IMG/VR virus record: IMGVR_UViG_3300050821_006051
Span: 1 to 41,477 of that record
Length of the DNA: 41,477 nucleotides
Reading direction: 5' to 3' (one strand)
From: a virus
How positions within the stretch are numbered: position 1 is the first letter of the stretch; each line of letters starts with the position of its first letter. Below the pieces are notes generated by a model. That model had not been told where the DNA came from. It worked only from the letters and a program-made list of their open reading frames with translations, and made no database searches. A program made the position numbers and the translations under genes. Shown here in pieces: positions 2,713 to 41,477 of this stretch.

Positions 2713-4661
2713 ATTTATATCTATGGGATTTGGAAACATTTAATAATTGTTATTACTTCACTGGTAAATTTCAGGGAAGTAATGAACATCAAGTCTATGA
2801 AATTTCAGAGAGAACTAATCAGCGCACCGAGCATTTATCTTGGTTATCCTATTTGCAGAATACCGGCTGTCACATGGTAGGATTCAATTCTCTCAACTTT
2901 GATTATCCAATTTTGCATGAGCTTTTGAACAATCCTTATACTTTTGGTTACACTACGGCTTATTTAATGGCTCAGAAAATCATTGGCTCGCAGTCGTACT
3001 GGCAAAATCCTCATGCTATTCGAATGAGTGATAGACTTATTCCGCAAATTGATTTGGTGAAAGTGAACCATTTTGATAATCCAGCAAGACGCTGCAGTTT
3101 AAAATCTCTTCAGTTCGCAATGCGAAGTGAATCAGTTGAAGATCTCCCTTATGATCCAAATATTCCACTTACTTATGATCAGATGGACAATCTTCGTGCC
3201 TACAACTTGCACGACGTGACTGAGACTGAGAAATTCCTCGGCAAGTGTCGCTCGCAAATCAACCTTCGCAAAGAGCTTCTCGACCAAGGTATTCTCTCAG
3301 GCGACGTGTTGAACTTCTCCGATGTTAAGATCGGCACAGAGTACCTCATTCGCAAAATTGGCAGAGCGAAATGTTTCGTTAAAGGCTCAACGCCAAGACA
3401 AACCCAAAGACAGTCCGTGGAGTTTAAAAATGTTATTCTTCCTAAAATCTCTTTTCGCACCGAGCCGTTTGAACAAGTCCTCGATTGGTTTAAGTCCCAA
3501 ACTTTATGGATCGGTAAGGAAGAAAAACCCAAGCTTGAAGCAAAACTTGCTGGTCTTGAATTCACATTTGGTCTCGGTGGATGTCACTCCTCTGTTGAAA
3601 ATAAACGATATGTCTCGACTGACACGCACGTTATCAAAGACATTGACGTCTCAGGAATGTACGTCGCGATTGCCGTCGCCAATGGTTTTTACCCGGAACA
3701 TCTCGGTCAGGATTTCACAATAGCCTACAAAGGTCTTCAGACCGATCGCAAGCAGTACGCTAAAGGTACTGTGATGAATTTGGTTTTGAAATTAGCAGGG
3801 AATGGTGTTTTTGGAAATAGCAATAATTCTTTCTCCCCGTTCTATGATCCGAAATACCAACTTTCTGTTACTCTCAATGGGCAGCTCCAGCTCCTTCAAT
3901 TGGTTGAAGTCTTGTCCCTCATCCCAGGTGTCGAAATTATTCAAGCCAACACCGACGGCATCACCGCATTGGTTCCTCGTGAACTCGAACATTTCTTTAA
4001 TCTATGGAAAAGTGAGTGGGAAATTGGAACTGGACTCAAACTTGAAGAAGTGGAGTATTCAACTGTCTGGCAGTCAGACGTAAATAATTTCTTGGCTATT
4101 GACAGCAAAGGGAACATAAAGCGCAAGGGTCGCTATTGGTATCCAATCACCGAAGACGACATGCACGGCGGCTCTGGCTCTAATTGGAACAAAGATTTCT
4201 CCAATATGTCAGCGCAAAAAGGTATCGAACAATGCCTTTTGACTGGTATCGCACCGGAAGACATTGTCTATTTAATCACCGATCCATTTGATTTTATGTT
4301 GCGATACAAAACTCCGTCTGGTTCTAAGGTCTTCATTGGCGAATATGAAATGTCTAAGACGGTTAGATATTACGTCTCTACCGAAGGTCAACCAATGAAG
4401 AAAATCACACCGGCTAAAGGTGTTGGTTTTAAGAGAAAGGCTAAACTCACCGACGCGTATTATGACAGCATTCTAGCTACGATACAAGACGGCGCCTGGG
4501 ACAGTAGGATACACACCAAAAATAAATCAGTCTATGAAGAAACAACGACATCAATTGAAAGCGGACGTCTAGTTAGGTGTTGCAATCATGCAGACGATTT
4601 TAATTGGCGTGACGTCGATTTTGATTTTTACGCGAAAGAGATTAGGAAATTATTGATATGA
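2709..4661 (+). CDS. Family B DNA polymerase with 3'-5' exonuclease
   Basis: A 650-residue replicative polymerase. The exonuclease domain shows Exo I (WDLETF, Asp7 and Glu9), Exo II (GFNSLNFDYPIL, Asp65) and Exo III (YNLHD, Tyr165 and Asp169), a DEDDy arrangement. The polymerase part shows motif A (DIDVSGMY, Asp313), motif B (KLAGNGVFGNSNN, Lys361) and motif C (NTDGI, Asp416), followed by KRKGRYW near 471. NTDG in place of the usual DTDS is typical of one group of phage family B enzymes. The GTG start overlaps the previous stop. No helicase, primase or sliding clamp gene was recognised, so the enzyme must borrow host factors or use unrecognised ones. Confidence 0.92.
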   Translation: MNLYLWDLETFNNCYYFTGKFQGSNEHQVYEISERTNQRTEHLSWLSYLQNTGCHMVGFNSLNFDYPILHELLNNPYTFGYTTAYLMAQKIIGSQSYWQNPHAIRMSDRLIPQIDLVKVNHFDNPARRCSLKSLQFAMRSESVEDLPYDPNIPLTYDQMDNLRAYNLHDVTETEKFLGKCRSQINLRKELLDQGILSGDVLNFSDVKIGTEYLIRKIGRAKCFVKGSTPRQTQRQSVEFKNVILPKISFRTEPFEQVLDWFKSQTLWIGKEEKPKLEAKLAGLEFTFGLGGCHSSVENKRYVSTDTHVIKDIDVSGMYVAIAVANGFYPEHLGQDFTIAYKGLQTDRKQYAKGTVMNLVLKLAGNGVFGNSNNSFSPFYDPKYQLSVTLNGQLQLLQLVEVLSLIPGVEIIQANTDGITALVPRELEHFFNLWKSEWEIGTGLKLEEVEYSTVWQSDVNNFLAIDSKGNIKRKGRYWYPITEDDMHGGSGSNWNKDFSNMSAQKGIEQCLLTGIAPEDIVYLITDPFDFMLRYKTPSGSKVFIGEYEMSKTVRYYVSTEGQPMKKITPAKGVGFKRKAKLTDAYYDSILATIQDGAWDSRIHTKNKSVYEETTTSIESGRLVRCCNHADDFNWRDVDFDFYAKEIRKLLI

Positions 4662-4906
4662 AAAATATGTTTAGTCCTACGGAAATGAAAGTGTTAAAAA
4701 TCCTCGGTCGAAAGAAAATGACGATCTCAGAGATCACGACTAAGTTGTGCGGTAAACATAAAAAGTCAATCAACGCTGGCAATATCGTCGCTTACTTTAT
4801 TAGACGTATCAATATGAAATGTAAGTTCCATAAATTAGATTGGTTTTTAAACGGCAAAGGTGCCGGGCGTTTAGGACGCACGGTCTGGAGGAGTAAGAAA
4901 GTATGA
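4658..4906 (+). CDS. Small winged-helix DNA-binding protein
   Basis: An 82-residue basic protein. Residues 5-60 (SPTEMKVLKILGRKKMTISEITTKL, then a basic helix around NIVAYFIRRI) have the pattern of a winged helix-turn-helix domain. It overlaps the polymerase and HU genes by ATGA at each end, so it belongs to the replication operon. It may be a transcription factor or an accessory DNA-binding protein. It is one of the few candidates for the protein that reads the operator motifs at 39056-39533. Confidence 0.65.
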   Translation: MKNMFSPTEMKVLKILGRKKMTISEITTKLCGKHKKSINAGNIVAYFIRRINMKCKFHKLDWFLNGKGAGRLGRTVWRSKKV

Positions 4907-8851: not shown

Positions 8852-9153
8852 GCGTCAGTCAAGTTGAGGTAAATTTAGCAAAAGAACTCGCCGAGGTGAA
8901 GGCTGAGATTGAGCAATTGGATGAACTATGTAATGCGAGACTCGGCGCTTTAAAAATGCAGCTTAAAGAAAACGAGCGGCTGAGAGAGGCTCTGGAATTT
9001 TACGCTGATCCAGAAACGTATTTTGCAATTGCGTTTCTCCCTGACCCGCCTTGTGGTCCGTTTATCCATGACACTGATGATGTTGAGCCAGGGAAACCTG
9101 GCGCAGTGGCTCGCAGAGCGCTGGCTCTGAAGGCGTGCGCGGGGAAAGAATGA
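8848..9153 (+). CDS. Coiled-coil accessory protein, mosaic of neighbouring genes
   Basis: A 101-residue protein. N-terminal coiled coil (KELAEVKAEIEQLDEL) matching the gene at 8161 in DNA, a middle segment (LREALEFYADPETYF...FIHDTDDVEPGKPGAVARRAL) familiar from small phage and prophage proteins, and an ALKACAGKE end matching the gene at 7558 in DNA. The last gene of the rightward unit before the convergence point. Confidence 0.7.
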   Translation: MSVSQVEVNLAKELAEVKAEIEQLDELCNARLGALKMQLKENERLREALEFYADPETYFAIAFLPDPPCGPFIHDTDDVEPGKPGAVARRALALKACAGKE

Positions 9154-9154
9154 A

Positions 9155-9172
9155 ACGACACGTTGGTGTCGT
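9155..9172. terminator. Perfect hairpin between convergent units
   Basis: A 7-bp perfect stem (9155-9161 with 9166-9172) and a 4-base loop just after the last rightward gene. No U run follows on either strand, so it is not a textbook intrinsic terminator, but its place at the junction of the two converging units suits a bidirectional stop or RNA-stability element. Confidence 0.4.
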
Positions 9173-9244
9173 CGAACTGCTCAGGAAGCGCTTGCTTCGT
9201 TGAACGCCGTTGTTGAAGAATACCGAGGCGGTGAAGATGGCTAG
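9173..9244 (+). pseudogene. Remnant of the C-terminus of a small accessory gene
   Basis: Frame 2 reads RTAQEALASLNAVVEEYRGG and then EDG and a stop at 9242-9244. This looks like the end of a small phage protein but has no start in frame. The 13 bases at 9190-9202 are identical to 8394-8406 in the gene at 8161 (LLASL segment). It is probably a leftover of gene shuffling in this region. Confidence 0.4.
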
Positions 9245-9903
9245 TACCTCGGCTCCTGCTTCGTCCGAGCAACCTGTGACACGGTGAACTGACCTGCGGT
9301 CACCGTGTAGAGCACTTCCATATAGTTAGCGACCAGATTGTCCTCACTCAAATAAATGCTTCCCGTCGCAACCGTGGCGCTATTTGTAGCGTCTCCAGTT
9401 GCCTTAATAGGGAGTGCTACGTAAATGGTGCCGTCATTACCAACAGCCAACGCTGCCGTTGCCGAGAGCGTTGTAGGTGTACTGGTCTGTGTGCCTGATC
9501 CGGTGCCGGTTATCGTAACGGCTGTTCCAGCTTTAGCATTTGCTAAACTTGACGCGAAGCTGAAAGTATTTGCGGTGAGAGGAATTGCGTAATAATTAGT
9601 CGATGTGGATAAACCTGTGGGTAGCGCACCGCCAGAGTTTGACACCTGCATTACCAGGCCGGTCAGGAAGCCATGTGCTGTCTGAGTGCAGATATTGGTG
9701 ACGGCACAAGTAAAGGTCGCGGCAGCGGGCGTCGTGTTCGTTATCGTGATCACATTCCCATAGCGCTGAGAGCGATCGATTGTCTGTGCTCCAACACCTT
9801 GCGTAAAGGCGACGCTCGCTGTGACTGCAGTAGCAGGAGTTGGGATCTGTGCGTGAACTAGACCACAGGTTAAAAGCGATAAGATTAATGCGACCAAGTT
9901 CAT
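9241..9903 (-). CDS. Exported tail-type/adhesin-like protein
   Basis: A 220-residue protein with a clear Sec signal peptide (MNLVALILSLLTCGLVHAQ, cleavage after Ala18). The mature part is Thr/Ala/Ser/Gly-rich beta structure. Residues about 72-145 (AHGFLTGLVMQVSNSGGALP, then the STNYYAI and ANTFSFA segments and a Gly-Thr run) match a common repeat domain of phage tail and baseplate proteins (HGLxTGDxVxxx...YYVIxxxxNTFxLA). SD AAGGAG lies 7 bases before the ATG. It is the last gene of the leftward unit. A signal peptide on such a protein is unusual because phage structural proteins normally stay in the cytoplasm. Confidence 0.7.
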   Translation of the reverse strand: MNLVALILSLLTCGLVHAQIPTPATAVTASVAFTQGVGAQTIDRSQRYGNVITITNTTPAAATFTCAVTNICTQTAHGFLTGLVMQVSNSGGALPTGLSTSTNYYAIPLTANTFSFASSLANAKAGTAVTITGTGSGTQTSTPTTLSATAALAVGNDGTIYVALPIKATGDATNSATVATGSIYLSEDNLVANYMEVLYTVTAGQFTVSQVARTKQEPRY

Positions 9904-9913
9904 AAGATTCTCC

Positions 9914-9994
9914 TTAGTGTTTTAAAGTGATGATGACACCAACGGCTGCGATGAGCCAGCAAACAATAACTAGCCAGACGTCTTTTCTGCGCAT
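9914..9994 (-). CDS. Tiny membrane protein (26 aa)
   Basis: Reads MRRKDVWLVIVCWLIAAVGV, then IITLKH and a stop. There is one membrane span after a positively charged start, and a GGAG site 9 bases before the ATG. It overlaps the end of the gene at 9970-10200 by 25 bases. Its place near the lysozyme-type gene allows a lysis role, such as holin regulator, but this is inference. Confidence 0.5.
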   Translation of the reverse strand: MRRKDVWLVIVCWLIAAVGVIITLKH

Positions 9995-10200
9995 CGTGAT
10001 TGCTCCAATGCAAGTTTCATTTTCGTCAATTTCTCTTCAGCTTTTGGGATCAATATCAGTAAGCATGCTGGACAAGTAACAATGTGAGGAACGCTGGTAA
10101 AACTTCGCTCAACGCTATTCATGTAAGGTACCCACTCGTCAGTGCAAAGCAATTGGAACGTAGGTCCACGGTATTTCTTGGTGCGATAATAATGAATCAT
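9970..10200 (-). CDS. Small Cys-containing protein
   Basis: A 76-residue protein with CPAC near residue 43 and an upstream Cys19, possibly a metal-binding pair. The start follows the endolysin stop directly (TAAATG), which indicates coupled translation. No family recognised. Confidence 0.6.
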   Translation of the reverse strand: MIHYYRTKKYRGPTFQLLCTDEWVPYMNSVERSFTSVPHIVTCPACLLILIPKAEEKLTKMKLALEQSRCAEKTSG

Positions 10201-10746
10201 TTAGATCCCGAATGTCTTTAAGATTGCAGCGACTCCTGCCTGATCACTTACCGCATCAGGATCGAAAACTCCATCGCTCACGTACTTACCTTTTTGATAT
10301 TGATCAGTATACGACCAGAGATACGGGCTCGGAATGTTTCGCGCTCTGTAACCCCAACCGTTGTATTCTTCCGCGTAGTAGAGTGCTGGACCAATGGTGA
10401 CGATATCGTTACTCCCATAAGCGTCAATCGCAGCGTCGGCCCACGAGTCGTAAGGTCCAACACCTGCAGGTACGTCAGTTGTCTTAATGGGATTTCCATT
10501 AGAGTCAAAAAGCGGATCGCCATTTTGTGGATAAGTTGAAAAGTCTTGACCACTCTCTAGCTCATTAAGCGCCGCTATCAACCACCACGGGAGACCCACT
10601 TGTGCCGCCACTTTATCGTAGATCGCTTTATTATCAAACGCTCGTTGTTTAATGTAAGCAAGATCACTCTCGTGACCGGGATTTATTTGAGCGACTCGAT
10701 AAAGATCTACGTAGTCGTCGTGCGGAAAAATATTGGCTTTAACCAT
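10201..10746 (-). CDS. Lysozyme-family endolysin (COG5526-like)
   Basis: A 181-residue protein resembling the COG5526 'lysozyme family' proteins. The order GLPWWLIAALNELESG (about 51-66), QNGDPLF (74-80), VPAG, then YYAEEYNGWGYR and SPYLWSYTDQYQKGKY is that of this family, in which a Glu near the first motif (Glu62 or Glu64 here) is the likely acid. It would cleave peptidoglycan at lysis. There is no signal peptide, so it would need a holin; the candidate at 13312 is in the same unit. SD GAGGAT lies before the ATG. Confidence 0.85.
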   Translation of the reverse strand: MVKANIFPHDDYVDLYRVAQINPGHESDLAYIKQRAFDNKAIYDKVAAQVGLPWWLIAALNELESGQDFSTYPQNGDPLFDSNGNPIKTTDVPAGVGPYDSWADAAIDAYGSNDIVTIGPALYYAEEYNGWGYRARNIPSPYLWSYTDQYQKGKYVSDGVFDPDAVSDQAGVAAILKTFGI

Positions 10747-12733: not shown

Positions 12734-12746
12734 CAGGTCACGTCCT

Positions 12747-12781
12747 AAAAATAAAAAGCCAGCGCGGAATTGCAACTGGCT
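12747..12781 (-). terminator. Intrinsic terminator after the lipoprotein gene
   Basis: On the minus strand, a 6-bp stem (AGCCAG with CTGGCT, 12781-12776 with 12762-12757) is followed by a T-rich run (12756-12747). It lies 17 bases past the lipoprotein stop and before the glycosyltransferase start, so it should reduce expression of the distal genes. Confidence 0.7.
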
Positions 12782-12797
12782 ACGAAAGAGCCGAAAA

Positions 12798-13226
12798 TTA
12801 GAACGGTACAGCAGCAGCACACGCAGTCGCTAAGGCAGCACTTACACCGTCGCTAACCGAGACGGAGCAGCCCCAAGCCGCAGGGACGGCACCGTTGACG
12901 ATAGAATTGATAGCGTCGATTCCAATTGGACAAACCAAATCACCGACGATACCTTTCATTTTACCTTTACCTTTAAGCTCTTTCACTTGCGATTGTACCG
13001 AAGCAGTCGAGCAAATATTAATAGCGCTTAGTTTATTTGCGATGCTGGCTGAGATTGCTGCTTGGTTTGAACAGCTTAAGACTGTCGCGATGCTGGCTGC
13101 AAATGCTGTGTTCAGAGATGACTCAACCGCACAGCCGACTACTTGGATCGGATTGACCGGTGCCGCAGTCGTACATGAGACAAGTGACGCAAGTCCAAGA
13201 GCGCAAAGTACCAATAACATTCGCAT
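12798..13226 (-). CDS. Phage lipoprotein
   Basis: A 142-residue protein with a lipoprotein signal (MRMLLVLCALGLASLVSC, lipobox LVSC, lipidated Cys18). The mature part is Ala/Ser/Val-rich with several Cys residues and no known domain. It should sit in the inner or outer membrane of a Gram-negative host. Possible roles are superinfection exclusion, an unusual outer-membrane spanin partner, or a receptor mask. It lies just after the holin-like and tiny membrane genes. SD GGGGA is before the ATG. Confidence 0.7.
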   Translation of the reverse strand: MRMLLVLCALGLASLVSCTTAAPVNPIQVVGCAVESSLNTAFAASIATVLSCSNQAAISASIANKLSAINICSTASVQSQVKELKGKGKMKGIVGDLVCPIGIDAINSIVNGAVPAAWGCSVSVSDGVSAALATACAAAVPF

Positions 13227-13238
13227 AAATTCCCCTTT

Positions 13239-13310
13239 TTAGTATTTTATGAATGAACGAATAAAGAGTCCGACGAGATGCCAATAAATTGCAAGCAAAA
13301 TCTTTGTCAT
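13239..13310 (-). CDS. Tiny membrane protein (23 aa)
   Basis: Reads MTKILLAIYWHLVGLFIRSF, then IKY and a stop. It starts one base after the stop of the holin-like gene, with GGGAAG as ribosome site. The segment is hydrophobic with Arg and Lys at the ends, which suits a small membrane peptide that could modulate the holin. It is too short for a homology argument. Confidence 0.5.
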   Translation of the reverse strand: MTKILLAIYWHLVGLFIRSFIKY

Positions 13311-13311
13311 G

Positions 13312-13539
13312 TTACTTCCCAAAGAAAATCAGGACCGCGAAGGTAACTGCAGCATTAATAGCAATCACCCCGCCAGTCCAAAGGAATTTGAATTTTTTAA
13401 GGTTATCTATCTCGTCCATTAAATCCCTGTGGCGCGCTTCACTGCTGAGTTCGAGCTTATCAAATATCTCATCGATGCGGTTAAACTTTGCAGTCGTAGC
13501 ATCGATGAAAAAATCTACAACGTCTCTCCTGTCCGTCAT
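13312..13539 (-). CDS. Holin/XhlA-like membrane protein
   Basis: A 75-residue protein. Residues 1-50 form a charged coiled-coil helix (FFIDATTAKFNRIDEIFDKL...LMDEIDNLKKFK), and residues about 53-72 form a single membrane span ending FFGK. This build is like XhlA/haemolysin-type phage proteins that act with holins. It is the best candidate for releasing the cytoplasmic endolysin encoded at 10201-10746. SD AGGA is before the ATG. Confidence 0.6.
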   Translation of the reverse strand: MTDRRDVVDFFIDATTAKFNRIDEIFDKLELSSEARHRDLMDEIDNLKKFKFLWTGGVIAINAAVTFAVLIFFGK

Positions 13540-13563: not shown

Positions 13564-15375
13564 TTATTGGTAATGTTCAGTGATATACACGTAACCGCCG
13601 ACCCCTGCAGCTCCTGCTGAACCATTAGTTGAACCTGAATTTCCGCCGCCGCCGGTGCCGATCACATATGGGAAGGTCTGCGCTGCAGTCGGTATAATGA
13701 CGACTTTAGCGTAACCGCCAGCGCTGCCGCCTATGCCTCCATAAGTTCCAGCTGCTTGAGTTGCGCCGCCGCCTGCTCCACCAGAGCCGTAACCGGTACC
13801 CGTCACACCAATAGCATTTCCATCGCCGCCAATACCGCCTTGCCCTAGTGGAGTTGAGCCACCGTTACCACCTAAAGGAGAAGTCGCATTGGCGCCTATA
13901 GACCCAGCGCTTCCCCCTCCACCATTCATCAAAAGTTGAATTAGAAACGCGGACGACGCGGTTACTACAGGTGTACCGCCAAGGGGCGGTGTCAGGCCAA
14001 GACCTGCTCCGACACCGTTGTTGAGGAAAATATTTGCTCCAAACAGAGTGAATGTACCCGACGAACCAGCAGCACCAGCTCCTCCGCCAACACCTGTTCC
14101 GCCGCCTCCGCCTCCTGCCCCTCCACCTACACCATCAAATTCCAGCCAGAGGACGTTTGCTGGCGTCGTGTAGTTGTCATAGGAGACGTTAGCTGATGAG
14201 GTGATGTTGGCGCCGTAGGCCGACGTTGTTTTATTGCAATGGTTACCTGACGTCGCACCAGAAGAATAAGTTAGGGTTTGAGCGCCTGCACTCGGCGCAC
14301 TTGTTCCACTCATGATGATTTGCGTGGCGCTTGAGGTGACGCCATAGGCGACCGTGAACGAGTGTCCATTATTGGTGTAAACACAGCCGACACTCACCAC
14401 GTCGGCGAGGCCGGACACAGTGAACACGTAGCCTACGAGTGATGAACCGAAGCCGCCTGTACCGGTTCCTGTCGCAGTCGCGTAGCTGACTGTTGGTGCG
14501 GTTAAAATCGTGGTGTTTCCAGCTATGCTCCCTAGAGCAATAGTGCCTGATGTGGTGATTGATCCGCCAGTTAACGGCGCTGTGGTCGCGATACTGGTAA
14601 CGGTGCCGGTTCCGCCGAGACCTGCTTGAATAGCTCCATAAGTCCAATTCCAAGACGCGGTCCCAGTACCTCCAGAGGGATTGATGCAAGTAAGCACGAG
14701 CTGTGTATTGGCGGCCATCGCTTGGACTGTATTGCCACCTGAAGTTTTAACGGTTGTCGTATTGCTGGATTGGTTGATGATCGTAGTGGACCAAACATAA
14801 GTCGCACCGAGAGTCGTCGCGACCGGTAGATTGATCTGTTGCGCTGTCGAGCCTGTGATTCCTTGAACTTGAGCACTTCCAACAACGAGAGTAATTGGAG
14901 ACGCTGAAGAAATTGTACTTAGAAAGCCAGGTAAATAGTTATTGGCAGAAAAATTTAAACTCGCATCCCAACCTGCAGTCGTCGACGCAGCAGGTGTTGC
15001 GGTAGCGCCTGTCATCGCTTGAGTGATCGCACCATTGGCGATTGCAGTCCCGTTACCGGTAGAAGTCACTGGACCGGTAAGATTAGCGTTCGTCGTGACA
15101 GTGGCAGCAAGAGTCGCATTACCTGCCGTTAAACTCGCCGCTGTACCTGTCAAATTGGTAGCGACTCCTGACGCTGGAGTACCTAGAGCGGGTGCTACTA
15201 AAGTCTTATTACTTAGTGTGTCAGTGCTCGCTCTACCGACTAAAGTGTCAGTTGCCGCAGGCATGCTCCAAACTTTGGTTCTGTCTGGTGATTTAACCTG
15301 ATCGCCAATAAGCGGTGACGTCGCTTGTGCAACAGTTGAGAAAACCAATAGCAATAATATTAAATAATATTTCAT
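13564..15375 (-). CDS. Gly-rich adhesin/tail fibre-tip protein with signal peptide
   Basis: A 603-residue protein. It opens with a Sec signal peptide (MKYYLILLLLVFSTVAQA). Then come tail-fibre repeats (TDTLSNKTLVAPALGTPASG), Thr/Ala/Ser-rich beta segments, and a C-terminal Gly-rich domain from about residue 415 (GVGGGAGGGGGGTGVGGGAG and similar) ending GGYVYITEHYQ. Such Gly-rich domains form polyglycine-helix bundles that bind receptors in T4 gp38-like adhesins. The ATG at 15375 has GGAG in front and overlaps the fibre stop (ATGA); the frame is open a little further upstream. A signal peptide on a fibre-tip protein is unexpected. Confidence 0.75.
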   Translation of the reverse strand: MKYYLILLLLVFSTVAQATSPLIGDQVKSPDRTKVWSMPAATDTLVGRASTDTLSNKTLVAPALGTPASGVATNLTGTAASLTAGNATLAATVTTNANLTGPVTSTGNGTAIANGAITQAMTGATATPAASTTAGWDASLNFSANNYLPGFLSTISSASPITLVVGSAQVQGITGSTAQQINLPVATTLGATYVWSTTIINQSSNTTTVKTSGGNTVQAMAANTQLVLTCINPSGGTGTASWNWTYGAIQAGLGGTGTVTSIATTAPLTGGSITTSGTIALGSIAGNTTILTAPTVSYATATGTGTGGFGSSLVGYVFTVSGLADVVSVGCVYTNNGHSFTVAYGVTSSATQIIMSGTSAPSAGAQTLTYSSGATSGNHCNKTTSAYGANITSSANVSYDNYTTPANVLWLEFDGVGGGAGGGGGGTGVGGGAGAAGSSGTFTLFGANIFLNNGVGAGLGLTPPLGGTPVVTASSAFLIQLLMNGGGGSAGSIGANATSPLGGNGGSTPLGQGGIGGDGNAIGVTGTGYGSGGAGGGATQAAGTYGGIGGSAGGYAKVVIIPTAAQTFPYVIGTGGGGNSGSTNGSAGAAGVGGYVYITEHYQ

Positions 15376-25515: not shown

Positions 25516-28001
25516 CGTCTCAAATCCTCTACGTCTGGGATAATTGAGAGGATCTCAAAATGAAACGGATCAACTTGTCTGAGTGCTATTTTCCCATTTG
25601 ATTTCCAATCTCCGGGAATAGTCACCTCAACCCGTTTAGTCACTGGAGCTTGGTATCTGTTGCCGATAATCGGATTGGTGTCTTGATAATTGACATCGTA
25701 TTTAGCAATGTCTTGCATGCCTATTAATCCATTAGCGTTTCCAGTTCCGCCGTCGCCGCCTGAATAAGGGAAATCGTAACTGACATAAAGACCGCGAGAG
25801 TTTAATAATTTTACATACATTTTATTTACTATTTTAGATTCAAGGAAAACAGGTCGCCCGTCGATCGTGTCAATGTCGAGCGTCTTAACGTCCATGATAT
25901 AAGGGAGACCGACGTACATTATCGCAGCACTTAAACCTGTAGGGAGATTAAAGGCACCTGCTGTAACTGTCGTGACAGGGTAACTCTCAACATCGTTGTT
26001 AGGCGATGAAACCAAAAAGCCATCGACTATGACCGCAGGCTTAAGACCATTCAAATGTGTACAAACTAAAAGCGCAGAAGGCCAACTTGTGACCGTCGCA
26101 TATAAATTAAATCCGCTAGCTTGCGCTGATGGGAAAAGACAAGACGGTTGAACTGTAACTGAATTGCTACTCGCGCGAGCGGTGATCACCAAATCAACAG
26201 AAGTACCATCGGTAACATCAAAAAATCTAAATCTTGTCCCTACGACGCCGCTCAAATATCTGTGCCCATCAGTATTCTGTACTGCAGGGAACAAAGCAGA
26301 AGTACCACAAGTCAAAGTGAGCGGACCACTCCACGGTCCTGCCGCAACCGGAGTCAAAGCGAAAACATCCGTCCCTGCCAGATTAGAATTCAAAAGACCG
26401 TTGTAGATAGCGATTGAGTCCATAGCTGCGATCGGAGGATTTTTATCAGCCTCAGTGTTCACGGCTTTGACTGCCGCCGTTATATAACGAGCAACATTTA
26501 TCTCGACATTTCGTACACCGTTGTTGTTTACCAAGAAAAGAGTTTGTTCTGGTATTCCAGTTCCTGCGACCGCCTCGACTAGAAATTGCGAATCGCCACG
26601 AGTCCAAGCTTGCATCTTCTCTGCCGGATCGTAAGTGAGACTTCCGAATGTACCATCGTTGAACACGACCCAAAGAAGCGGAATCTCACCTGATTGAAAC
26701 GCCCAACTAACGACCTGACGACCTAGGAATAAATGGTTACTGTAGACGCTGATGTCTTCAGCCGAAAAAGTTCCCATTTGTAAAGACCAATTAAATGATC
26801 TAATCGCATTACTGCTAGCATCTAGAAAAAGTAAACCGCCAGAGGTTTTTATCGCTGGAAGATTTGGGGCAATGACCCAATTACCTTTTTGAATTAAAGC
26901 GGTATTACCTGGAGCAAGCGCTCCACCATTAGCGAATATCCCAACTCCCGTGAAAACCACAAGACCATTGAAATCTGCCATTCTTAGAATATTTGCAGTC
27001 CCTGATGAGCCTGCAAGAAATGCTAAAGTAGAAGCACCATTAAGAGGGTAGTCGACTGTGAAATTATTTTGATAACCCGGACGACTAGCGAATAAAGTTT
27101 CTAAATTAGCATTCCCACCTTCAGATAATATCAATCTCTGTTGGTAAACGATTCCTGTTTTAGAATTCATTCCACTAATCGATCCGACATCTGTAGAAAC
27201 AAGTGTCGGAGGAGAATGAGTGTAATCCGCAGCGCCACCATAATCAGTAAACGAAAATTGAGTGTTACCGCCTGAAATAGTGGGAATGGAAACAGAGCCT
27301 ACAAATCCATACGCTCCGGCTCCTGTCGGTCGCCTATAGACATTCATTGCAGTAATGCCGCCGACAGTCGCAGCTTGACCTTGAACCAAAAGACTCTGAC
27401 CTGCCGCTATCGGTAATAAAGCTCCGTCGATAGCATCACCAGAAGCTAGAGTTTCCTGACCGTTGACAATAAAAGTAACGACATAATCCACACCGTAACC
27501 AAAGGTGCCAGATCCAGAGTCAGCTATATTGAAAATAGTCGGAGGTGTAGGAAGTGCAAAGATGCCGGTTGCAAGAGCGCCAGTCGTCCAATTCATTTTT
27601 TGCGTAGCCACACCGCTATAAAATATATAAACAAATTGACCGCTGGTTTCGAAATGAACATTCGAATAATCAGTTAATGTTAGCGATTGAGAATTATCAG
27701 CGACTAAAGAATAAGAAAAAACGCCAGCGGAATTTACAATTGAGTAAGTGCGAACGTACCCGTAGCCAAGCTCAATCCAACAGCCGGAATTAGGCGGAGA
27801 ATAGATCATGACTTTTTTATTATCAGTTTTGGTCTTCACCAATTGTTGACGACCAGGACGGGAGACAATGCGACCTGATTTTCCAATCAACACGTTGCGA
27901 GCGGTATAAAGACCTGATTGGAATTTCTCCAGCGTGATCCGCTCTTGAAGTGCCGGATCTAATTCACCTGCTGAAAAACTAGCCTGAGTGTGTAAACCCA
28001 T
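25512..28001 (-). CDS. Tail tubular protein B (nozzle, gp12-like)
   Basis: An 829-residue beta-rich protein. The start (MGLHTQASFSAGELDPALQE...KFQSGLYTARNVLIGKSGR...SRPG) is the standard opening of the podovirus nozzle protein. The rest is a long beta-propeller-like sequence. It forms the distal tail tube together with tail tubular protein A. TAATG overlap with the gene for tail tubular protein A shows coupled translation. Confidence 0.92.
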   Translation of the reverse strand: MGLHTQASFSAGELDPALQERITLEKFQSGLYTARNVLIGKSGRIVSRPGRQQLVKTKTDNKKVMIYSPPNSGCWIELGYGYVRTYSIVNSAGVFSYSLVADNSQSLTLTDYSNVHFETSGQFVYIFYSGVATQKMNWTTGALATGIFALPTPPTIFNIADSGSGTFGYGVDYVVTFIVNGQETLASGDAIDGALLPIAAGQSLLVQGQAATVGGITAMNVYRRPTGAGAYGFVGSVSIPTISGGNTQFSFTDYGGAADYTHSPPTLVSTDVGSISGMNSKTGIVYQQRLILSEGGNANLETLFASRPGYQNNFTVDYPLNGASTLAFLAGSSGTANILRMADFNGLVVFTGVGIFANGGALAPGNTALIQKGNWVIAPNLPAIKTSGGLLFLDASSNAIRSFNWSLQMGTFSAEDISVYSNHLFLGRQVVSWAFQSGEIPLLWVVFNDGTFGSLTYDPAEKMQAWTRGDSQFLVEAVAGTGIPEQTLFLVNNNGVRNVEINVARYITAAVKAVNTEADKNPPIAAMDSIAIYNGLLNSNLAGTDVFALTPVAAGPWSGPLTLTCGTSALFPAVQNTDGHRYLSGVVGTRFRFFDVTDGTSVDLVITARASSNSVTVQPSCLFPSAQASGFNLYATVTSWPSALLVCTHLNGLKPAVIVDGFLVSSPNNDVESYPVTTVTAGAFNLPTGLSAAIMYVGLPYIMDVKTLDIDTIDGRPVFLESKIVNKMYVKLLNSRGLYVSYDFPYSGGDGGTGNANGLIGMQDIAKYDVNYQDTNPIIGNRYQAPVTKRVEVTIPGDWKSNGKIALRQVDPFHFEILSIIPDVEDLRR

Positions 28002-29005: not shown

Positions 29006-29443
29006 TTATACCAGCGCGTCCACGACTTTGGGAAACGAACGGTAGTATGGTAGCTCGTCCGCTGGCATCAGATAAACATCCAATGTCACCGTGGTCGTTC
29101 CGCCGGTAGCCGTATTTCTAAAACCGATATATCGTCGAGTCAAGCAACCGAGAGGGACCGGTAATTCAACGTGGGACCCCAAGAACAGCGCGGCGGCGAG
29201 AACCGTCACAGTATTCAAACTGTCCACGTTGACAGTCAAAGCCGCATCATCAGCTTGAATCAATTCCATCGTGTGCGTTGAGCCTGCGCCCGCTGCAACC
29301 GTTGGAATGAGCAAGAGTGAGTACCTGCGACCGATGCTCAGATCAGTAGCAGCGACTAACTTGTCATACGAGTTCGTCGACACAGTCGCGGCACCTGTGA
29401 AGGCTTGCGCAACCGACAATTGATTCTGAATATCAAATCTCAT
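29006..29443 (-). CDS. Bbp16-like capsid accessory/cement protein
   Basis: A 145-residue protein with a beta-rich sequence (RFDIQNQLSVAQAF...SYDKLVAATDLSIGRRYSLL...TRRYIGFRN...LDVYLMPADELP) that matches the Bbp16 family of BPP-1-type phages, which decorate the capsid. The ATG at 29443 is preferred to the in-frame GTG at 29449 because GGAGG lies 8 bases before it. It follows the major capsid gene, as in relatives. Confidence 0.85.
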   Translation of the reverse strand: MRFDIQNQLSVAQAFTGAATVSTNSYDKLVAATDLSIGRRYSLLLIPTVAAGAGSTHTMELIQADDAALTVNVDSLNTVTVLAAALFLGSHVELPVPLGCLTRRYIGFRNTATGGTTTVTLDVYLMPADELPYYRSFPKVVDALV

Positions 29444-29484
29444 ACCCACATTCCTCCAAACTAGAATTTTAAAACACCAGAACC

Positions 29485-29506
29485 AAAAAGCGCAGGCAAC
29501 CTGCGC
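29485..29506 (-). terminator. Intrinsic terminator after the major capsid gene
   Basis: On the minus strand, a perfect 7-bp GC-rich stem (GCGCAGG with CCTGCGC) with a 3-base loop is followed by TTTTT. It begins just past the capsid stop (29516-29518) and should make capsid mRNA more abundant than the tail mRNA downstream. Confidence 0.85.
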
Positions 29507-29515
29507 CTCTCGAAA

Positions 29516-30559
29516 TTAATAATTCTGATACGTAGAGTTCGTTACTTGAGACTCTGTGTTAAGCAGAGTGTCAGATCTACGAACCGGTCGACCTAAAAAC
29601 ATCAAAACTTGTTTTCCTTCGTAATTATCAAAAGTCAAACCTGCACCGGCAGTCACTTTAGAAAGTGCTTGCTTGTGGAGGAACGCTTCGATTGTACGGT
29701 TCACGTACCAAATACCTTTGCCGTTCTCAGGATTAAAGATCTTGTAAGAAGCAGAGATCATCAAATCGATCAGATCTGCCGCAGCGTTTCCGCTCTTCAG
29801 CAAAGTCACGTCGATATTGGCAATCCTAGCACCTTGACGATAATCCTTCACGACCAAACCGTGGTCGACTTCAAACTGCTCTTCGTAACCGTAGAACACG
29901 CCTGAGTTACCATTCTCATCGTTGGCCGTGATTTGAACGAGATTGCCGCCTTTGGAGCGATCAGTCCGTTTCAAACCTGCTTGGCTACCTGCCGGGTAAA
30001 TCCCGAACATGGAGCGCTCACCCCAGTGAAGGAGCAAGATAGAAGTGTTGTTTGAGTTTACACCGCCGCCATCAATGACCTGAGCCGAGGTCGGTTCAGT
30101 CGAGAGAGTGGTTGAGTAAATGTCCATGAAGCCTGCGACTTTTCGAGTCGAGGTCGTGGGCGAGCCATAAATGGCAAGTTTCGCATGCTCGATTGCAGCC
30201 GCTTGAATATGACCTTGCGCCTGATTCCAACGGTTGTAAGCGATGCGATCGATACCGCCGCGCTGTGCAACCATTGCGTCCATAACCGATTTCGATTCAA
30301 AGTGAGCCGTGGTAAACTTGCGCTCTTCAACGAGTGACTTGCTCGAAGGGATCGGCTGGTTGGCTTTGCGGTAGTAAACGCTAGGGAGGTTGGACCGGAT
30401 CTCTTCAACGTGACTTGTCCCCTCGTTCATTTGCATGTAGGGGATGTCGTTGAGCATCGGGTTCATTTGGAGGAGAACCTCGGCCACTTTGCCGATTTGC
30501 TTATTCTTTGATTTCGCAACATCAGCCAGTGTTAGGAGATACGCACCAAGAGCTGCCAT
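29516..30559 (-). CDS. Major capsid protein (Bbp17-like)
   Basis: A 347-residue protein of the HK97 fold, resembling the BPP-1 Bbp17 capsid protein. The start (ALGAYLLTLADVAKSKNKQI), LNDIPYMQMNEGTSHVEEIR, and the ending with KQVLMFLGRPVRRSD are typical of the family. No long scaffold-like N-terminal arm is present, and a separate scaffold gene lies upstream. GGAGG is before the ATG, and an intrinsic terminator follows the stop. Confidence 0.92.
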   Translation of the reverse strand: MAALGAYLLTLADVAKSKNKQIGKVAEVLLQMNPMLNDIPYMQMNEGTSHVEEIRSNLPSVYYRKANQPIPSSKSLVEERKFTTAHFESKSVMDAMVAQRGGIDRIAYNRWNQAQGHIQAAAIEHAKLAIYGSPTTSTRKVAGFMDIYSTTLSTEPTSAQVIDGGGVNSNNTSILLLHWGERSMFGIYPAGSQAGLKRTDRSKGGNLVQITANDENGNSGVFYGYEEQFEVDHGLVVKDYRQGARIANIDVTLLKSGNAAADLIDLMISASYKIFNPENGKGIWYVNRTIEAFLHKQALSKVTAGAGLTFDNYEGKQVLMFLGRPVRRSDTLLNTESQVTNSTYQNY

Positions 30560-30580: not shown

Positions 30581-31393
30581 TTACTGATACATCTCTGGTA
30601 AAAAACCATATGGATCATCTTCTTTTTCGACTACTGGCGGTTTTATCGATTCTCCTAACGTCAACTTTTCAGTTCCGTAAAGAAGATCATACATCGCCAA
30701 CAAGTCTCGCATGACATAAGGAGGCAGCTTTGTCCCACGCTCCGTCAACATTTTTTTTGTATTCGGCATATTTTGTTGCAAAACTTTTTCTGCCTTATGG
30801 ACGTTAGACACGAAATTCTCACCGCCAAATTTTGGATCGGTTTTTAATTCTTGTTCCCAATCATCTCTCGTTTTCGCGGCTTGCTTCTCGACATTCTTCT
30901 GGAATTCGACTTTCTCATTCGCGCGAGAAGTAAGTTCTGCTTTACGATCGTCGAGCATTTCTTGTGCGGCCTCTTTTGTCACACCGTGTTTTTTTGCGTA
31001 AGTTAAAATCTTATTCGCTTCTTCAACCGGCAAGCCTTCAGTCTTGACCTCATAACCAAGTTCTATTTTAACGGGCGCAACCGGTGGAGTTACTACCGGT
31101 TCTTCTTTTACAACGGCGGGCTTAAGACCATATCCGCTGGCTGGCTCGATAGGTTTTTCTTCTGGTTTCTTCTCGACGGGCTTTGCTGCGGCGACTGGCG
31201 TTTTATCTCCCTCGGTCGCCTGGACTTTTTCGTAGCCGAGTTCGTCGTAGTTATCCCCTTCTCCTTCAGGCGCCGCACTAACCGCTGGAATGACCGGGAC
31301 CACTGCGGGTTTGGACTCAACTGCTGGCGCTCCACCACCGGCTGCTCCTTCGCTAAGTTGTTCCAATATTAGCATCTTGATAAATCTGGGCAT
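30581..31393 (-). CDS. Scaffolding protein
   Basis: A 270-residue acidic protein with a Pro/Val/Ala/Glu-rich first part (VESKPAVVPVIPAV and KPEEKPIEP) and a helical second part (NKILTYAKKHGVTKEAAQEM). Position directly before the capsid gene and the charged, helical make-up suit a scaffold. AAAGGA is before the ATG at 31393. It overlaps the Bbp19-like gene by 41 bases. Confidence 0.82.
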   Translation of the reverse strand: MPRFIKMLILEQLSEGAAGGGAPAVESKPAVVPVIPAVSAAPEGEGDNYDELGYEKVQATEGDKTPVAAAKPVEKKPEEKPIEPASGYGLKPAVVKEEPVVTPPVAPVKIELGYEVKTEGLPVEEANKILTYAKKHGVTKEAAQEMLDDRKAELTSRANEKVEFQKNVEKQAAKTRDDWEQELKTDPKFGGENFVSNVHKAEKVLQQNMPNTKKMLTERGTKLPPYVMRDLLAMYDLLYGTEKLTLGESIKPPVVEKEDDPYGFLPEMYQ

Positions 31394-37683: not shown

Positions 37684-37936
37684 CCACCAACCTACTTGTG
37701 AGTTTTATTTCATAGTCTACTTGCATAATTTGACCGCTCTTATTGACTCCCGTCAAGAACTGTCCATAGTCTGCCACTTGCTCACTCTCTAACATATGAA
37801 GTTGGTAGAACACCAACTCTCTAATAAAGTCTCTAAACACAGGGACTTTAATCATCTTGTTTAAATAACTATTAGGTATGTGCTTTTTAGCTAAAGCTTT
37901 GATCTCTAGCATGCTGTGAGTCTTAGGTCTCTCCAT
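37583..37936 (-). CDS. Small protein, copy A of a paralogous pair with overprinted tail
   Basis: A 117-residue protein. Residues 1-83 (EIKALAKKHIPNSYLNKMIK...RDFIRELVFYQLHMLE...DYEIKLTSR) align with copy B. The last 34 residues come from the start of copy B read in another frame, over a 101-base overlap. The duplicate thus either lost its original stop or evolved a new tail. The start overlaps the terminase small subunit stop by 14 bases, with GGTGG upstream. Confidence 0.65.
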   Translation of the reverse strand: MERPKTHSMLEIKALAKKHIPNSYLNKMIKVPVFRDFIRELVFYQLHMLESEQVADYGQFLTGVNKSGQIMQVDYEIKLTSRLVDVNNKRESADQRERVGDVGEKVHPGLSPSGCVE

Positions 37937-38711
37937 TCTCCACCTTTCCTGTGATCTCCAATACCTCTAATGATACGCTTGCTTCTTTCAATTGCGCCAC
38001 ATGGTCCTCGGCTCTCTTAGACGATGATAGCAGCACGGCCGCCATATTACTGGTGACATCGTGTTCGACAACTTTTGTTTCCTTTAATATATTCTTCTCT
38101 CGTCCCAATAGTTGATGCGCTTGCATCTTATCGCACAACTCAATCTCGATGATCTCACCTATTATAGTCTTCATCCCATTGGGGTCTTCACCAAATATAT
38201 TCTTTACTTTGAATTTCTTAATGGCTCGCCTAGCCTCTGGATTGATCTCACTCATTTTATTTTTGTAGCTGCCGTCAGGACGCTCAAACTCCACAGGGTC
38301 CAATGACGAGACTTCCTTTATCCTCTCTATGACCTCATGGGCGTCGTAGCCGTACTTCATTACACTCTTCTCGGTCAGCTTCATGACACAATTATAAATA
38401 TCAGGTCTGTTCATCAAATGCTGACCGGCTTGAGGCGCTAGACCGGCATCGCGGGCTGATTGTGCTTTGTTACGGCAACGCATGTAGTTGGAGATAAAGC
38501 GGAGGATATTAGGGTCCATGCGGTGCTCTGGGAGGAGAGAGGACTGTAGGATGATAGAAGTCTCATCTTCTGTGAGAGAGCCGTCTGGTGTCTCTATAGG
38601 AGGAGGGTTTGGAGGCTTCGCAGGTCGGGGAGTACGGTTGTTAGGCTCCAATACTCGCACTTCTGAGGGCGGTATGGGAGGACATCCGGGAGGTGGGGGA
38701 AAATGTTTCAT
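37923..38711 (-). CDS. Terminase small subunit (putative)
   Basis: A 262-residue protein. A Pro-rich start (HFPPPPGCPPIPPSEVRVLE) precedes a DNA-binding helix-turn-helix region (about 65-105: RFISNYMRCRNKAQSARDAG...RPDIYNCVMKL) and a C-terminal part with SSLDPVEFERPDGS and INPEARRAIKKF, typical of phage TerS. It recognises packaging sites and recruits the large subunit. The ATG at 38711 is used; an in-frame GTG lies at 38717. Neither has a strong ribosome site. It is the first gene of the leftward unit. Confidence 0.78.
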   Translation of the reverse strand: MKHFPPPPGCPPIPPSEVRVLEPNNRTPRPAKPPNPPPIETPDGSLTEDETSIILQSSLLPEHRMDPNILRFISNYMRCRNKAQSARDAGLAPQAGQHLMNRPDIYNCVMKLTEKSVMKYGYDAHEVIERIKEVSSLDPVEFERPDGSYKNKMSEINPEARRAIKKFKVKNIFGEDPNGMKTIIGEIIEIELCDKMQAHQLLGREKNILKETKVVEHDVTSNMAAVLLSSSKRAEDHVAQLKEASVSLEVLEITGKVENGET

Positions 38712-39017
38712 ATCCACTAAGGCAGCATTTTGAAGGAGATGAGGTCAAGTGTGCGGTTATATTAACGCAGTGTGTCAGACGGGAGGTAGATTGCCTCTGG
38801 CGATACGATACCGTGGGATGCGCCAAGAGGAGCATGTACTCATGCGACGGAGCGTTTAAAGTTCATGCTAGTTGCAAAGGAACGTCCGCTAGGACTAGAG
38901 GAGGATTCACCGCAGTCGTTGAAGTTGTACGGCTCCGCACGTTTCGTTAAAAGGGATCTAAAATCCAATTCTATACGATGTCAAGCACAATGATAAATAA
39001 ATACTGTGAGGATTGAG

Positions 39018-39057
39018 GTGCCACTACGCAGTGGGTACCTGCTTAATATGCAGGCAC
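39018..39057 (+). other. Two-hairpin (three-way-junction-like) element
   Basis: Two perfect 5-bp stems, 39021-39025 with 39030-39034 and 39038-39042 with 39050-39054, enclosed by a 3-bp stem (39018-39020 with 39055-39057). An AT-rich tract follows. It might be an RNA structure, an origin signal or a recognition site for packaging. It overlaps the minus-strand candidate promoter. Confidence 0.4.
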
Positions 39058-39071
39058 ACTGTAAATATCAA
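39043..39071 (-). promoter_or_regulatory. Candidate promoter for the leftward unit
   Basis: On the minus strand, TTGATA (39071-39066) is followed after 17 bases by TATTAA (39048-39043). An ACACTGTAA copy (39056-39064) lies in the spacer. It is about 330 bases before the terminase small subunit gene. The match to the sigma-70 consensus is good but not perfect. A weaker alternative, TTGACA with TTAGAT, is nearer (about 38980). Confidence 0.5.
39056..39064 (+). promoter_or_regulatory. Operator-like motif copy 1 (ACACTGTAA)
   Basis: Eight of nine bases match the ACACTGTAT motif. It lies in the spacer of the leftward candidate promoter. Confidence 0.45.
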
Positions 39072-39141
39072 TAAAAATTTTAAAAAAAATTGCACACGTT
39101 TGGGAGATGGCCTTCTTAGTTTTCCCGCATGCGTCACGTTT

Positions 39142-39169
39142 TTGACCCACCCTCCTTGGTCAATTTTTT
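39142..39169 (+). terminator. Terminator-like hairpin in the control region
   Basis: TTGACC (39142-39147) pairs with GGTCAA (39158-39163), followed by TTTTTT (39164-39169). The loop is 10 bases. It would stop rightward transcripts before they reach the downstream operators, but the stem is short. Confidence 0.45.
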
Positions 39170-39219
39170 GCAACTATAGTCTTAGTTGGTCATCTCGATT
39201 GTAGTCGATTTAGCAATAC

Positions 39220-39228
39220 ACACTGTAT
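39220..39228 (+). promoter_or_regulatory. Operator-like motif copy 2 (ACACTGTAT)
   Basis: Exact motif copy, inverted relative to copies 3 and 4, with 38 bases between the centres of copies 2 and 3. Confidence 0.55.
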
Positions 39229-39257
39229 TTATAGCGCGTGAGGCACCCTAAAAGCTC

Positions 39258-39266
39258 ATACAGTGT
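39258..39266 (-). promoter_or_regulatory. Operator-like motif copy 3
   Basis: Exact motif on the minus strand (ATACAGTGT on plus), 15 bases centre to centre from copy 4. Confidence 0.55.
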
Positions 39267-39272
39267 GTTTAA

Positions 39273-39283
39273 ATACAGTGTAT
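39273..39283 (-). promoter_or_regulatory. Operator-like motif copy 4, palindromic
   Basis: ATACAGTGTAT, an odd palindrome with arms ATACA and TGTAT, the likely full form of the site. Confidence 0.55.
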
Positions 39284-39300
39284 GTGCTTAATAATGTGGC

Positions 39301-39331
39301 AATGACGCGACGCTTTTTATTAAATGACGCG
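39301..39331. repeat. Direct repeat AATGACGCG
   Basis: AATGACGCG at 39301-39309 and again at 39323-39331, 22 bases apart (about two helical turns), both followed by a G/C-rich CGC or CCGC stretch. A possible protein-binding pair or iteron. Confidence 0.4.
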
Positions 39332-39361
39332 CCGCACACCAATATTGACTTTAAAGCTTTT

Positions 39362-39407
39362 CCATGGTAACTAATGTACATGATATACACATGATCAATC
39401 ACATGGT
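39362..39407. repeat. Iterated ACATG(A/G)T motif
   Basis: CCATGGT at 39362-39368, ACATGAT at 39378-39384 and 39389-39395 and ACATGGT at 39401-39407. The last three are spaced 11-12 bases, close to one helical turn, like iterons. Confidence 0.35.
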
Positions 39408-39500
39408 TATGCGTACTCGTCCCTCATAACTTTGATTGTCAGCGACAAAGTAAGCACATTAGTTAAATCGCCGCGCCGACATTCCACTGTAAAATAACCA

Positions 39501-39533
39501 TTGACATCTCACACACTGTATAATACACTGTAT
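39501..39533 (+). promoter_or_regulatory. Candidate repressed promoter of the rightward unit
   Basis: TTGACA (39501-39506), 17 bases, then TACACT (39524-39529). Two operator-like motifs overlap it: copy 5 at 39513-39521 in the spacer and copy 6 at 39525-39533 (palindromic ATACACTGTAT from 39523) over the -10. This is the usual arrangement of a repressor-controlled phage early promoter. The gene at 39576 starts about 45 bases further on. Confidence 0.65.
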
Positions 39534-39575
39534 ATGTAGTTGCAACCAAGCAACCACGTTAACCAAGGACCTCAC

Positions 39576-39731
39576 ATGCTCCGGAATTTCGAAGTCTATC
39601 TAGTGGCCGCACTATTAATCACCCTATTAGTTCTCATCATCGACATGGGAATCAAACTCGCGCCCGTCCATACTCAAGTCGAGTCTATGGTCCTACAAAA
39701 CGCATCTAATATCCCAACGGTGCAACCATGA
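39576..39731 (+). CDS. Small single-span membrane protein
   Basis: A 51-residue protein with one membrane span (about residues 7-27: VYLVAALLITLLVLIIDMGI) and a short polar end. The ATG at 39576 has AAGGA 7 bases upstream. It is the first gene of the rightward unit. The stop overlaps the next start (ATGA). As an early membrane protein it could serve superinfection exclusion, but no evidence beyond position exists. Confidence 0.65.
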   Translation: MLRNFEVYLVAALLITLLVLIIDMGIKLAPVHTQVESMVLQNASNIPTVQP

Positions 39732-40321
39732 GCTCACGCACACCACGTACAATCGCTGAGATCATCGAAGCCTATAACAATGAAGGTCTCTCAGCCGAAG
39801 AGTACAATACCGAGAATGAAGACTGTTCACTGGCCGAGTTTTGTCAATCCTTTGGCTATCATGAGTCTAACATCAACCAAGTGATCCGCGATGCCGACTT
39901 AGCTGATGAGACCAAAGCGCTGTTAACTGCACATGTATCTAAACATGGCTCGCGTGAGACGTTTAATCTATTAGCGAAGCATTGTGAGCTCAAGTGTGTC
40001 GGCATATATACTCAAACAAACGAAGTGTATTCAGTACAGATCGGTGAGATTGAACATCAGCCCGACGATAAACTAATCGAAGCCTATCTAAAGTTATCAC
40101 CTAAGAGTCAAGAGAAGGTTCGTAAAGCTTGTGACTGGCATATATCAGACTCAAGTTGTAAAGGTTGGCTTTACATCGGATGCGACTATGAGCGATGGGT
40201 GATGGTATGCGATGAGGACTCGCTACTAGGTGACTTGCCGACTAAGGGACATCTCACATCATACGATGGGACCGGATGCATAACTCGCCGGTCCCGTGCC
40301 AAGCTTAGTCTCGTATCATAA
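39728..40321 (+). CDS. Unknown early protein, possible DNA-binding
   Basis: A 197-residue protein of no recognised family. Residues about 33-60 (SLAEFCQSFGYHESNINQVI) look like a helix-turn-helix pattern, though weakly. The rest contains several Cys and Trp (KACDWHISDSSCKGWLYIGC). ATGA overlap with the upstream gene. Its position directly after the operator-controlled promoter fits an autoregulator, which is inferred only. Confidence 0.55.
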   Translation: MSSRTPRTIAEIIEAYNNEGLSAEEYNTENEDCSLAEFCQSFGYHESNINQVIRDADLADETKALLTAHVSKHGSRETFNLLAKHCELKCVGIYTQTNEVYSVQIGEIEHQPDDKLIEAYLKLSPKSQEKVRKACDWHISDSSCKGWLYIGCDYERWVMVCDEDSLLGDLPTKGHLTSYDGTGCITRRSRAKLSLVS

Positions 40322-41087: not shown

Positions 41088-41477
41088 AAAAACTAACGTA
41101 CCACCACATCAAAGCATTTAATCCGTGTTACGATCCGATTAAACACATACCATTGACTTATAACGGAACACTGACGGCGATTTTAAAGTTAAAAACCGTC
41201 CCCGCTAAAGACCGACTTTGGGCCGTGGTGCGCTCACCGCTCATGACTGACATGCAGCTAAAACTCTACGGGTTGGCTTGTGCGCGTATGTGCGAGGCTA
41301 ACTCAACGGACCCGCGAGTTAAGGCTTGCAATGATACCGTCGAGGCATTCCTAAAAGGTAAAGCAACTAAAGAAGAGCTTGAGTCGGCGCGGTCGGCGGC
41401 GCGGTCGGCGGCGCGGTCGGCGGCGGGGTCGGCGGCGGAGTCGGCGCGGTCGGCGGCGGAGTCGGCGGCGTGGTCGG
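41084..41477 (+). CDS. N-terminal part of Ala/Ser-repeat protein (continues at position 1)
   Basis: At least 131 residues before the window end. The unique part (KKLTYHHIKAFNPCYDPIKH...TNDTVEAFLKGKATKEELES-like region with ARMCEANSTDPRVKACNDTV) resembles small phage proteins that carry ARSAAWSAA repeats, sometimes called 'putative immunity protein'. The ARSAA-type repeats begin at about 41384. It overlaps the previous gene by ATGA. The end of the gene is at 1-141. Confidence 0.75.
   Translation, partial: MKKLTYHHIKAFNPCYDPIKHIPLTYNGTLTAILKLKTVPAKDRLWAVVRSPLMTDMQLKLYGLACARMCEANSTDPRVKACNDTVEAFLKGKATKEELESARSAARSAARSAAGSAAESARSAAESAAWS
41384..41477 (+). repeat. GCG/TCG-rich coding tandem repeat (right end)
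   Basis: Same kind of units as at 1-93. The last 24 bases recur exactly inside the first 93 bases of the window, which shows that the ends belong together. The frame relation is off by one base, so the repeat number is not reliable. Confidence 0.85.

Follow-up and report, generated by a model that had tools for sequence, protein, structure and literature searches.

A conserved array of odd palindromes between the early and late operons of an uncultured phage, a probable operator array

The described systems closest to the locus analysed here are the lambda-type operators OL and OR with the proteins CI and Cro, the operators of MqsA/HigA-type HTH antitoxins, the operators of the ribbon-helix-helix proteins Arc and CopG, and the parS site of Vibrio cholerae chromosome II. 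Lambda carries two triplets of 17-bp operators, whereas the phage clade described below carries 3-20 short odd palindromes. MqsA operators differ in sequence from the sites of this clade. For ribbon-helix-helix dimers (Arc, CopG, MetJ) a short symmetric core in one groove and a spacing of about one helical turn are typical, and the DNA-binding domains of response regulators usually read direct repeats rather than palindromes. A literature search for the site returned only a table of Vibrio parS sites, in which the core TACANTGTA of V. cholerae chromosome II parS is common to the sites described here (PMC7022226).

The window is a whole linear IMG/VR record of 41,477 bp from an uncultured virus of bacteria. 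Late genes (capsid, portal, terminase) run leftward from terS at 38717, replication genes (exonuclease, single-strand binding protein, DNA polymerase) run rightward from 138, and small early genes, also rightward, occupy 39576 to the contig end. The terminase is approximately 34% identical to those of epsilon15-like phages, and no DNA-level relative of the window was found among named phages. The coordinates of the features are listed in Table 1.

An earlier reading of the window made from its letters only (the sequence-only reading) had reported a cluster of a 9-bp motif at 39056-39533 and had taken the odd palindrome ATACA-N-TGTAT as the full site, and both observations were borne out. Exact copies of ACACTGTAT occur 5 times in this interval and nowhere else in the contig, and with one mismatch allowed the whole 41,477 bp has 8 matches, all inside this interval. 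The symmetric unit is the odd palindrome, which is perfect at 39273 and 39523 and carries one mismatch at 39218, 39258 and 39511; outside the control region, a single stray at 25815 was found at 0-1 mismatch. For both ACACTGTAT and ATACA-N-TGTAT the mismatch counts over the whole window are ordinary in number and unusual in their clustering. The 852-bp non-coding region contains 6 copies of the core ACA-N-TGT (expectation 0.48 by the region's own base-pair statistics, P 1e-5) versus 2 in the remaining 40.6 kb, and hence the motif is not equally common elsewhere in the genome, which the same reading had named as a point to check. The string CACTGTA is absent outside the control region versus 2.8 copies expected, a difference that is not significant.

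Table 1. Features of the window and their coordinates
Feature	Position	Strand	Evidence or remark
Non-coding control region, 852 bp	38718..39569	.	Splits leftward late operon (terS first) from rightward early operon; ORF list, TerS Pfam, same region adjoins terS in relatives
Terminase small subunit, first late gene	37923..38717	-	Pfam Terminase_2, E=1.6e-11
Small membrane-type protein of 51 aa (from ATG), first early gene	39576..39731	+	ORF list; no family
Second early gene, 197 aa, candidate regulator of the sequence-only reading	39728..40321	+	No homologue found
Small winged-helix protein gene downstream of DNA polymerase, conserved; alternative regulator	4658..4906	+	AlphaFold2 model
Early promoter candidate TTGACA-17-TACACT	39501..39529	+	TTGACA at 39501, TACACT at 39524-39529; 10/12 matches
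Site 1, GCACACTGTAA, degenerate with intact ACA-N-TGT core	39054..39064	+	In spacer of weak leftward candidate promoter 39071-39043 (promoter by reading only)
Site 2, ACACACTGTAT	39218..39228	+	Motif search
Site 3, ATACAGTGTGT	39258..39268	+	Motif search
Site 4, ATACAGTGTAT, perfect palindrome	39273..39283	+	Motif search
Possible degenerate copy TTCCACTGTAA, 3 mismatches, uncertain	39482..39492	+	Just upstream of -35
Site 5, ACACACTGTAT	39511..39521	+	In early-promoter spacer
Site 6, ATACACTGTAT, perfect palindrome	39523..39533	+	Over -10; its centre lies 12 bp from that of site 5, as in site pairs of relatives
Second recurring element, two copies of AATGACGCGnCGC	39301..39335 (39301-39313, 39323-39335)	+	Also in control regions of L011, L013, G001 and G019

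The early promoter candidate was the best of three found by a promoter scan in 38500-39800, and its spacer and -10 box are covered by sites 5 and 6, which lie 12 bp apart, as the sequence-only reading had described for its rightward promoter. The leftward candidate promoter (TTGATA at 39071-39066, 17 bp, TATTAA at 39048-39043) also reads as described, with the first copy in its spacer, although it is weak and absent from the scan list. The reading as an operator cluster on divergent promoters is supported, and the case is strengthened by the conservation in relatives. Similar promoter overlaps were seen there as single cases in the contigs L011, G016 and G019, and over all relatives the overlap of sites with a strong -35/-10 pair was only slightly above background (P 0.02 at 4/6, P 0.10 at 5/6). 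It is not claimed that every site lies on a promoter; over all sites of the relatives, strong -35 boxes upstream were only marginally enriched.

Two further repeats were observed in the control region. The second recurring element has the form ACGCGnCGC, often after AATG or GATA; one subgroup of relatives also carries it in the control region (L011 at 2498 and 2674, L013 at 1714, G001 at 1158, G019 at 30395), and it is rare elsewhere. Three copies of TAGTTGCAA lie in the window control region (38869, 39168-39176 on the minus strand, and 39537) and none elsewhere in the contig; this string is not conserved in the relatives' control regions.

Relatives were found with terminase profiles, which yielded approximately 35 contigs of uncultured phages, epsilon15-like podoviruses with terminases 57-68% identical. 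A DNA polymerase scan and a terminase scan of bacterial genomes found nothing, a direct search of viral contigs for the 39728 protein and the 23-bp site pair was likewise empty, and a capsid scan gave one contig in a MAG (L165) which does not cover the control region. The motif had been picked in the window, and L011 and L013 were the first relatives in which it was noticed; the remaining contigs played no part in its choice. Over ten control regions including the window, ACA-N-TGT was observed 92 times versus 6.2 expected and led all 64 odd 7-bp palindromes, the runner-up being TTT.AAA with 39 versus 13.9, so that the sequence-only reading's second check, conservation in related phages, also came out in favour of the motif. 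In contig-wide comparisons, it ranked first of the 64 by local cluster in G014, G016, G019, G010, L011, L102 and L121. Nine of the ten control regions had 3.4-8.5 copies per kb, as against 0-0.55 per kb outside the region in each contig; the control region of G005 has a weak cluster of 3 copies (1.5 per kb, P 0.03). Up to 21 core copies were counted upstream of terminase (L118). As background, a 1.2-Mb bacterial MAG contains 283 copies, approximately 0.24 per kb. No cluster was found in 81 more distant loci, and since none of their 1.5-kb stretches held more than 3 cores, the array belongs to the clade of the window.

The sites of G019 and G016 precede the early operon, a small operon for secreted proteins and terS, and some sites of G014 and G018 lie also inside early genes. 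In relatives (L011 2955-3774, L013 2197-3187, G016 12736-13441, G019 30718-31190) the secreted-protein operon separates the early from the late promoters, and the window lacks it; the L011 and L013 proteins are cysteine-rich, with the pattern YC.PGKSYACG..CIS.

Flank spelling is largely the same across the sites of one genome and changes from genome to genome. It is mostly ATACA-N-TGTAT in the window, G001, L011 and G019, AAACA-N-TGTTT in L013, and (T/G)AACA-N-TGTT(A/C) in G014 and G018, which have operators of the type AACANTGTT in common, and G016 has C at -2. The centre base is C or G in all six window sites and always A or T in G001, L013, G018 and G019; the window alone is restricted to C/G centres. 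Variation within genomes at the centre base, -1 and -2 was in each case below that in all 5,000 label shuffles. The genomes with the AACA-N-TGTT type lie in a terminase clade with 100/98 support. Ten site pairs at 12 bp were found in five contigs. Such genome-specific spelling would be expected of a dedicated protein that co-evolves with its sites.

The sequence-only reading had noted that no repressor was recognised, which is true of the contig and misleading for the phage. Between control region and exonuclease the relatives carry a helicase, a nuclease, a primase and many small genes, of which approximately 8 kb is absent in the window (a distance of about 10 kb in G019 versus about 2 kb), and this stretch encodes two DNA-binding proteins in relatives. 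The lack of a repressor thus appears to be largely explained by an incomplete contig. The window ends at 41380-41477 in a simple in-frame repeat of the GCGGCGGGGTCGGCG type within an early gene, and the G014 contig (46342-46530 and 1-180) also breaks in an early gene at a simple repeat, of the GDGYG type; breaks at such repeats probably explain the missing stretch. As separate observations on the relatives' early genes, the helicase ORF of G001 (7638-10289) has 883 aa versus approximately 555 in relatives, with an insert that starts with CLGKGTPVLMYDGQVKSVEEIKV after the Walker motif and looks like an intein, and a VATDGHRLI-like segment in ORFs of G016 (14465-15019), G001 (2073-2606) and G005 (29272-29859) gives these the look of small sliding-clamp-type proteins.

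The two DNA-binding proteins are encoded by adjacent genes in six relatives (G001, G005, G014, G016, G018, G019), and the window phage presumably carries the pair in its missing stretch. The first (RHH-wH) has a ribbon-helix-helix N-terminus, and its AlphaFold model, of moderate quality (pLDDT 72, poor N-terminus), places a winged helix behind it; in G019 (27146-27850) and homologues long C-terminal helices follow in the predicted model. RHH_3 is above the Pfam cut-off in one member (G019), the G001 protein matches an Arc-like phrog, matches to CopG/ORF56 are weak, and most members have no PHROGs family. The second (Xre) is a Cro/C1 HTH protein of 68-85 aa that matches the HTH_3, MqsA and HigA families and is closest to MqsA and HigA (HigA-2 by profile). 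In G019 its gene lies at 26777-26983, on the minus strand like the RHH-wH gene. A Cro-like HTH protein of this kind is present in the early operon of seven relatives and not in the incomplete window contig; the seventh, G017, has the Xre gene and no RHH gene was found in it, its contig not covering the control region.

It is highly probable that the window array is a set of phage operators, and the chances are about even that these are read by the HTH protein (Cro/MqsA-type Xre), alone or with a partner. The operator would be the odd palindrome with the core ACA-N-TGT, flanked in the window as ATACA-C/G-TGTAT and read by a phage-encoded DNA-binding regulator. Protein bound at the two copies over the early-promoter spacer and -10 would block RNA polymerase, and through the central copies and those towards the late genes the same protein could also act on the late promoter. 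The regulator would be the Cro/MqsA-type HTH protein from the end of the early operon, possibly with the RHH-wH protein encoded just before it, and once enough of it had accumulated its own early promoter would be turned off and the hand-over to the late genes helped. We infer protein binding, cooperativity, repression as opposed to activation and a role in timing from sequence comparison.

All three DNA-binding proteins occur together in complete relatives, so that co-occurrence cannot choose between them. Xre is favoured by a comparison of G014 with G018: their operators are alike and the recognition-helix letters of both Xre proteins are TIQAVNLWL though these proteins are approximately 60% identical, while the N-terminal strands of the first-gene proteins are very different and the predicted recognition helices of the 4658-type proteins differ as well. 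Against Xre, a conventional HTH dimer would have little room on a 7-bp core at 12-bp spacing, a geometry better suited to ribbon-helix-helix dimers. On this account the RHH-wH protein might bind alone, with dimers in single major grooves cooperating at the 12-bp spacing, which fits the symmetric core, the near-one-turn spacing, the family matches given above and the presence of the gene, with Xre adjoining, in 6/6 complete relatives carrying the early stretch. This is kept as a rival, an unlikely one, because the strand residues do not track operator type; the moderate quality of the model and the failure to find the gene in G017 also count against it. The winged-helix protein at 4658, one of the sequence-only reading's candidates, is a lower-placed alternative that we consider improbable as the regulator. 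It is the only conserved candidate present in the window (in 8/8 near-complete relatives) and has a confident winged-helix model (AlphaFold2 pLDDT 88, H-H-H-E-E), but its gene sits behind DNA polymerase in the replication module, and most of the protein's nearest structural neighbours in the PDB are winged helices, for example ArlR (weak, E 0.07), the closest structural likeness being to a response-regulator DNA-binding domain. The reading's other candidate, the 39728 gene, is a poor one, with no homologue in the contigs of 12 relatives.

Binding by a host protein, which the reading had also allowed, would agree with the absence of a visible regulator in the contig and with the use of host factors by phages; the genome-specific spelling and the lack of clustering of ACA-N-TGT in the 81 more distant phage loci make it very improbable. 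Among known host boxes, the LexA-type CTGT-N8-ACAG (E. coli) has one window match at 29220 and the BlaI/CopY box TACAnnTGTA, with a 2-bp spacer, one chance match at 13966, neither in the control region. It is quite improbable that the array is a centromere or a set of replication-origin iterons. The G016 array has steps of about 30 bp, and the core is shared with the parS site NTTTACANTGTAAAN of V. cholerae chromosome II (PMC7022226), but the full parS2 spelling TTTACANTGTAAA occurs in one of 165 loci, ParB_N was found in none of nine records, and ParA gave nothing above cut-off, the AAA_31 matches lying below it and inside a primase-type gene. Moreover, sites 5 and 6 lie on a promoter and the control region has no DnaA-box cluster.

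The genetic switch seen in the layout by the sequence-only reading is not supported as one of lysogeny type, and its statement that no CI-like repressor or integrase was recognised holds by profile: integrase and resolvase (PF00589, PF00239) and the S24 repressor (PF00717, controls positive) were found in 0/9 records, some of them incomplete. Since integrase, resolvase, S24 repressor, ParA and ParB were not detectable in the relatives, the array is probably an early/late timing control rather than a lysogeny switch. As a wider and rather doubtful conjecture, the RHH-wH and Cro/MqsA-type pair might jointly read an array over the early, accessory and late promoters, with as many as 20 odd palindromes, across a clade of uncultured, apparently lytic podoviruses, with spelling types that are possibly mutually incompatible; if so, these would be repressor-based exclusion types among related lytic phages. 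The array itself, judged by its letters, is real, conserved and functional-looking, and phage operator arrays are of an ordinary kind; its layout and its occurrence in apparently lysogeny-free phages are what appears unusual. An unexplained motif of one contig has become a control element common to at least 10 uncultured phages with testable regulators named, and its natural spelling variation is a ready experiment on the co-change of regulator and operator in apparently non-lysogenising phages.

Compared with known systems, the locus resembles lambda-type OL/OR in having several operators on divergent promoters, with an operator over -10, and, in the window's relatives, an early operon that encodes a small Cro-type HTH protein; it differs in that the relatives have no integrase or S24 repressor and their Cro-like gene is found at the early operon's end instead of between the promoters. 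The likeness to MqsA/HigA-type antitoxins lies in the sequence-profile matches of the relatives' Xre proteins, for which, unlike in those systems, no toxin partner was recognised. With Arc/CopG the clade has in common short symmetric sites in close pairs and a conserved ribbon-helix-helix gene, although the domain is here fused to a predicted winged helix and its binding is putative. From V. cholerae chromosome II parS it differs in the flanks and in having neither ParA nor ParB. With promoter-covering sites, a position conserved in relatives and genome-specific spelling, the locus has the features of an operator array for a dedicated phage regulator, whose binding is putative.
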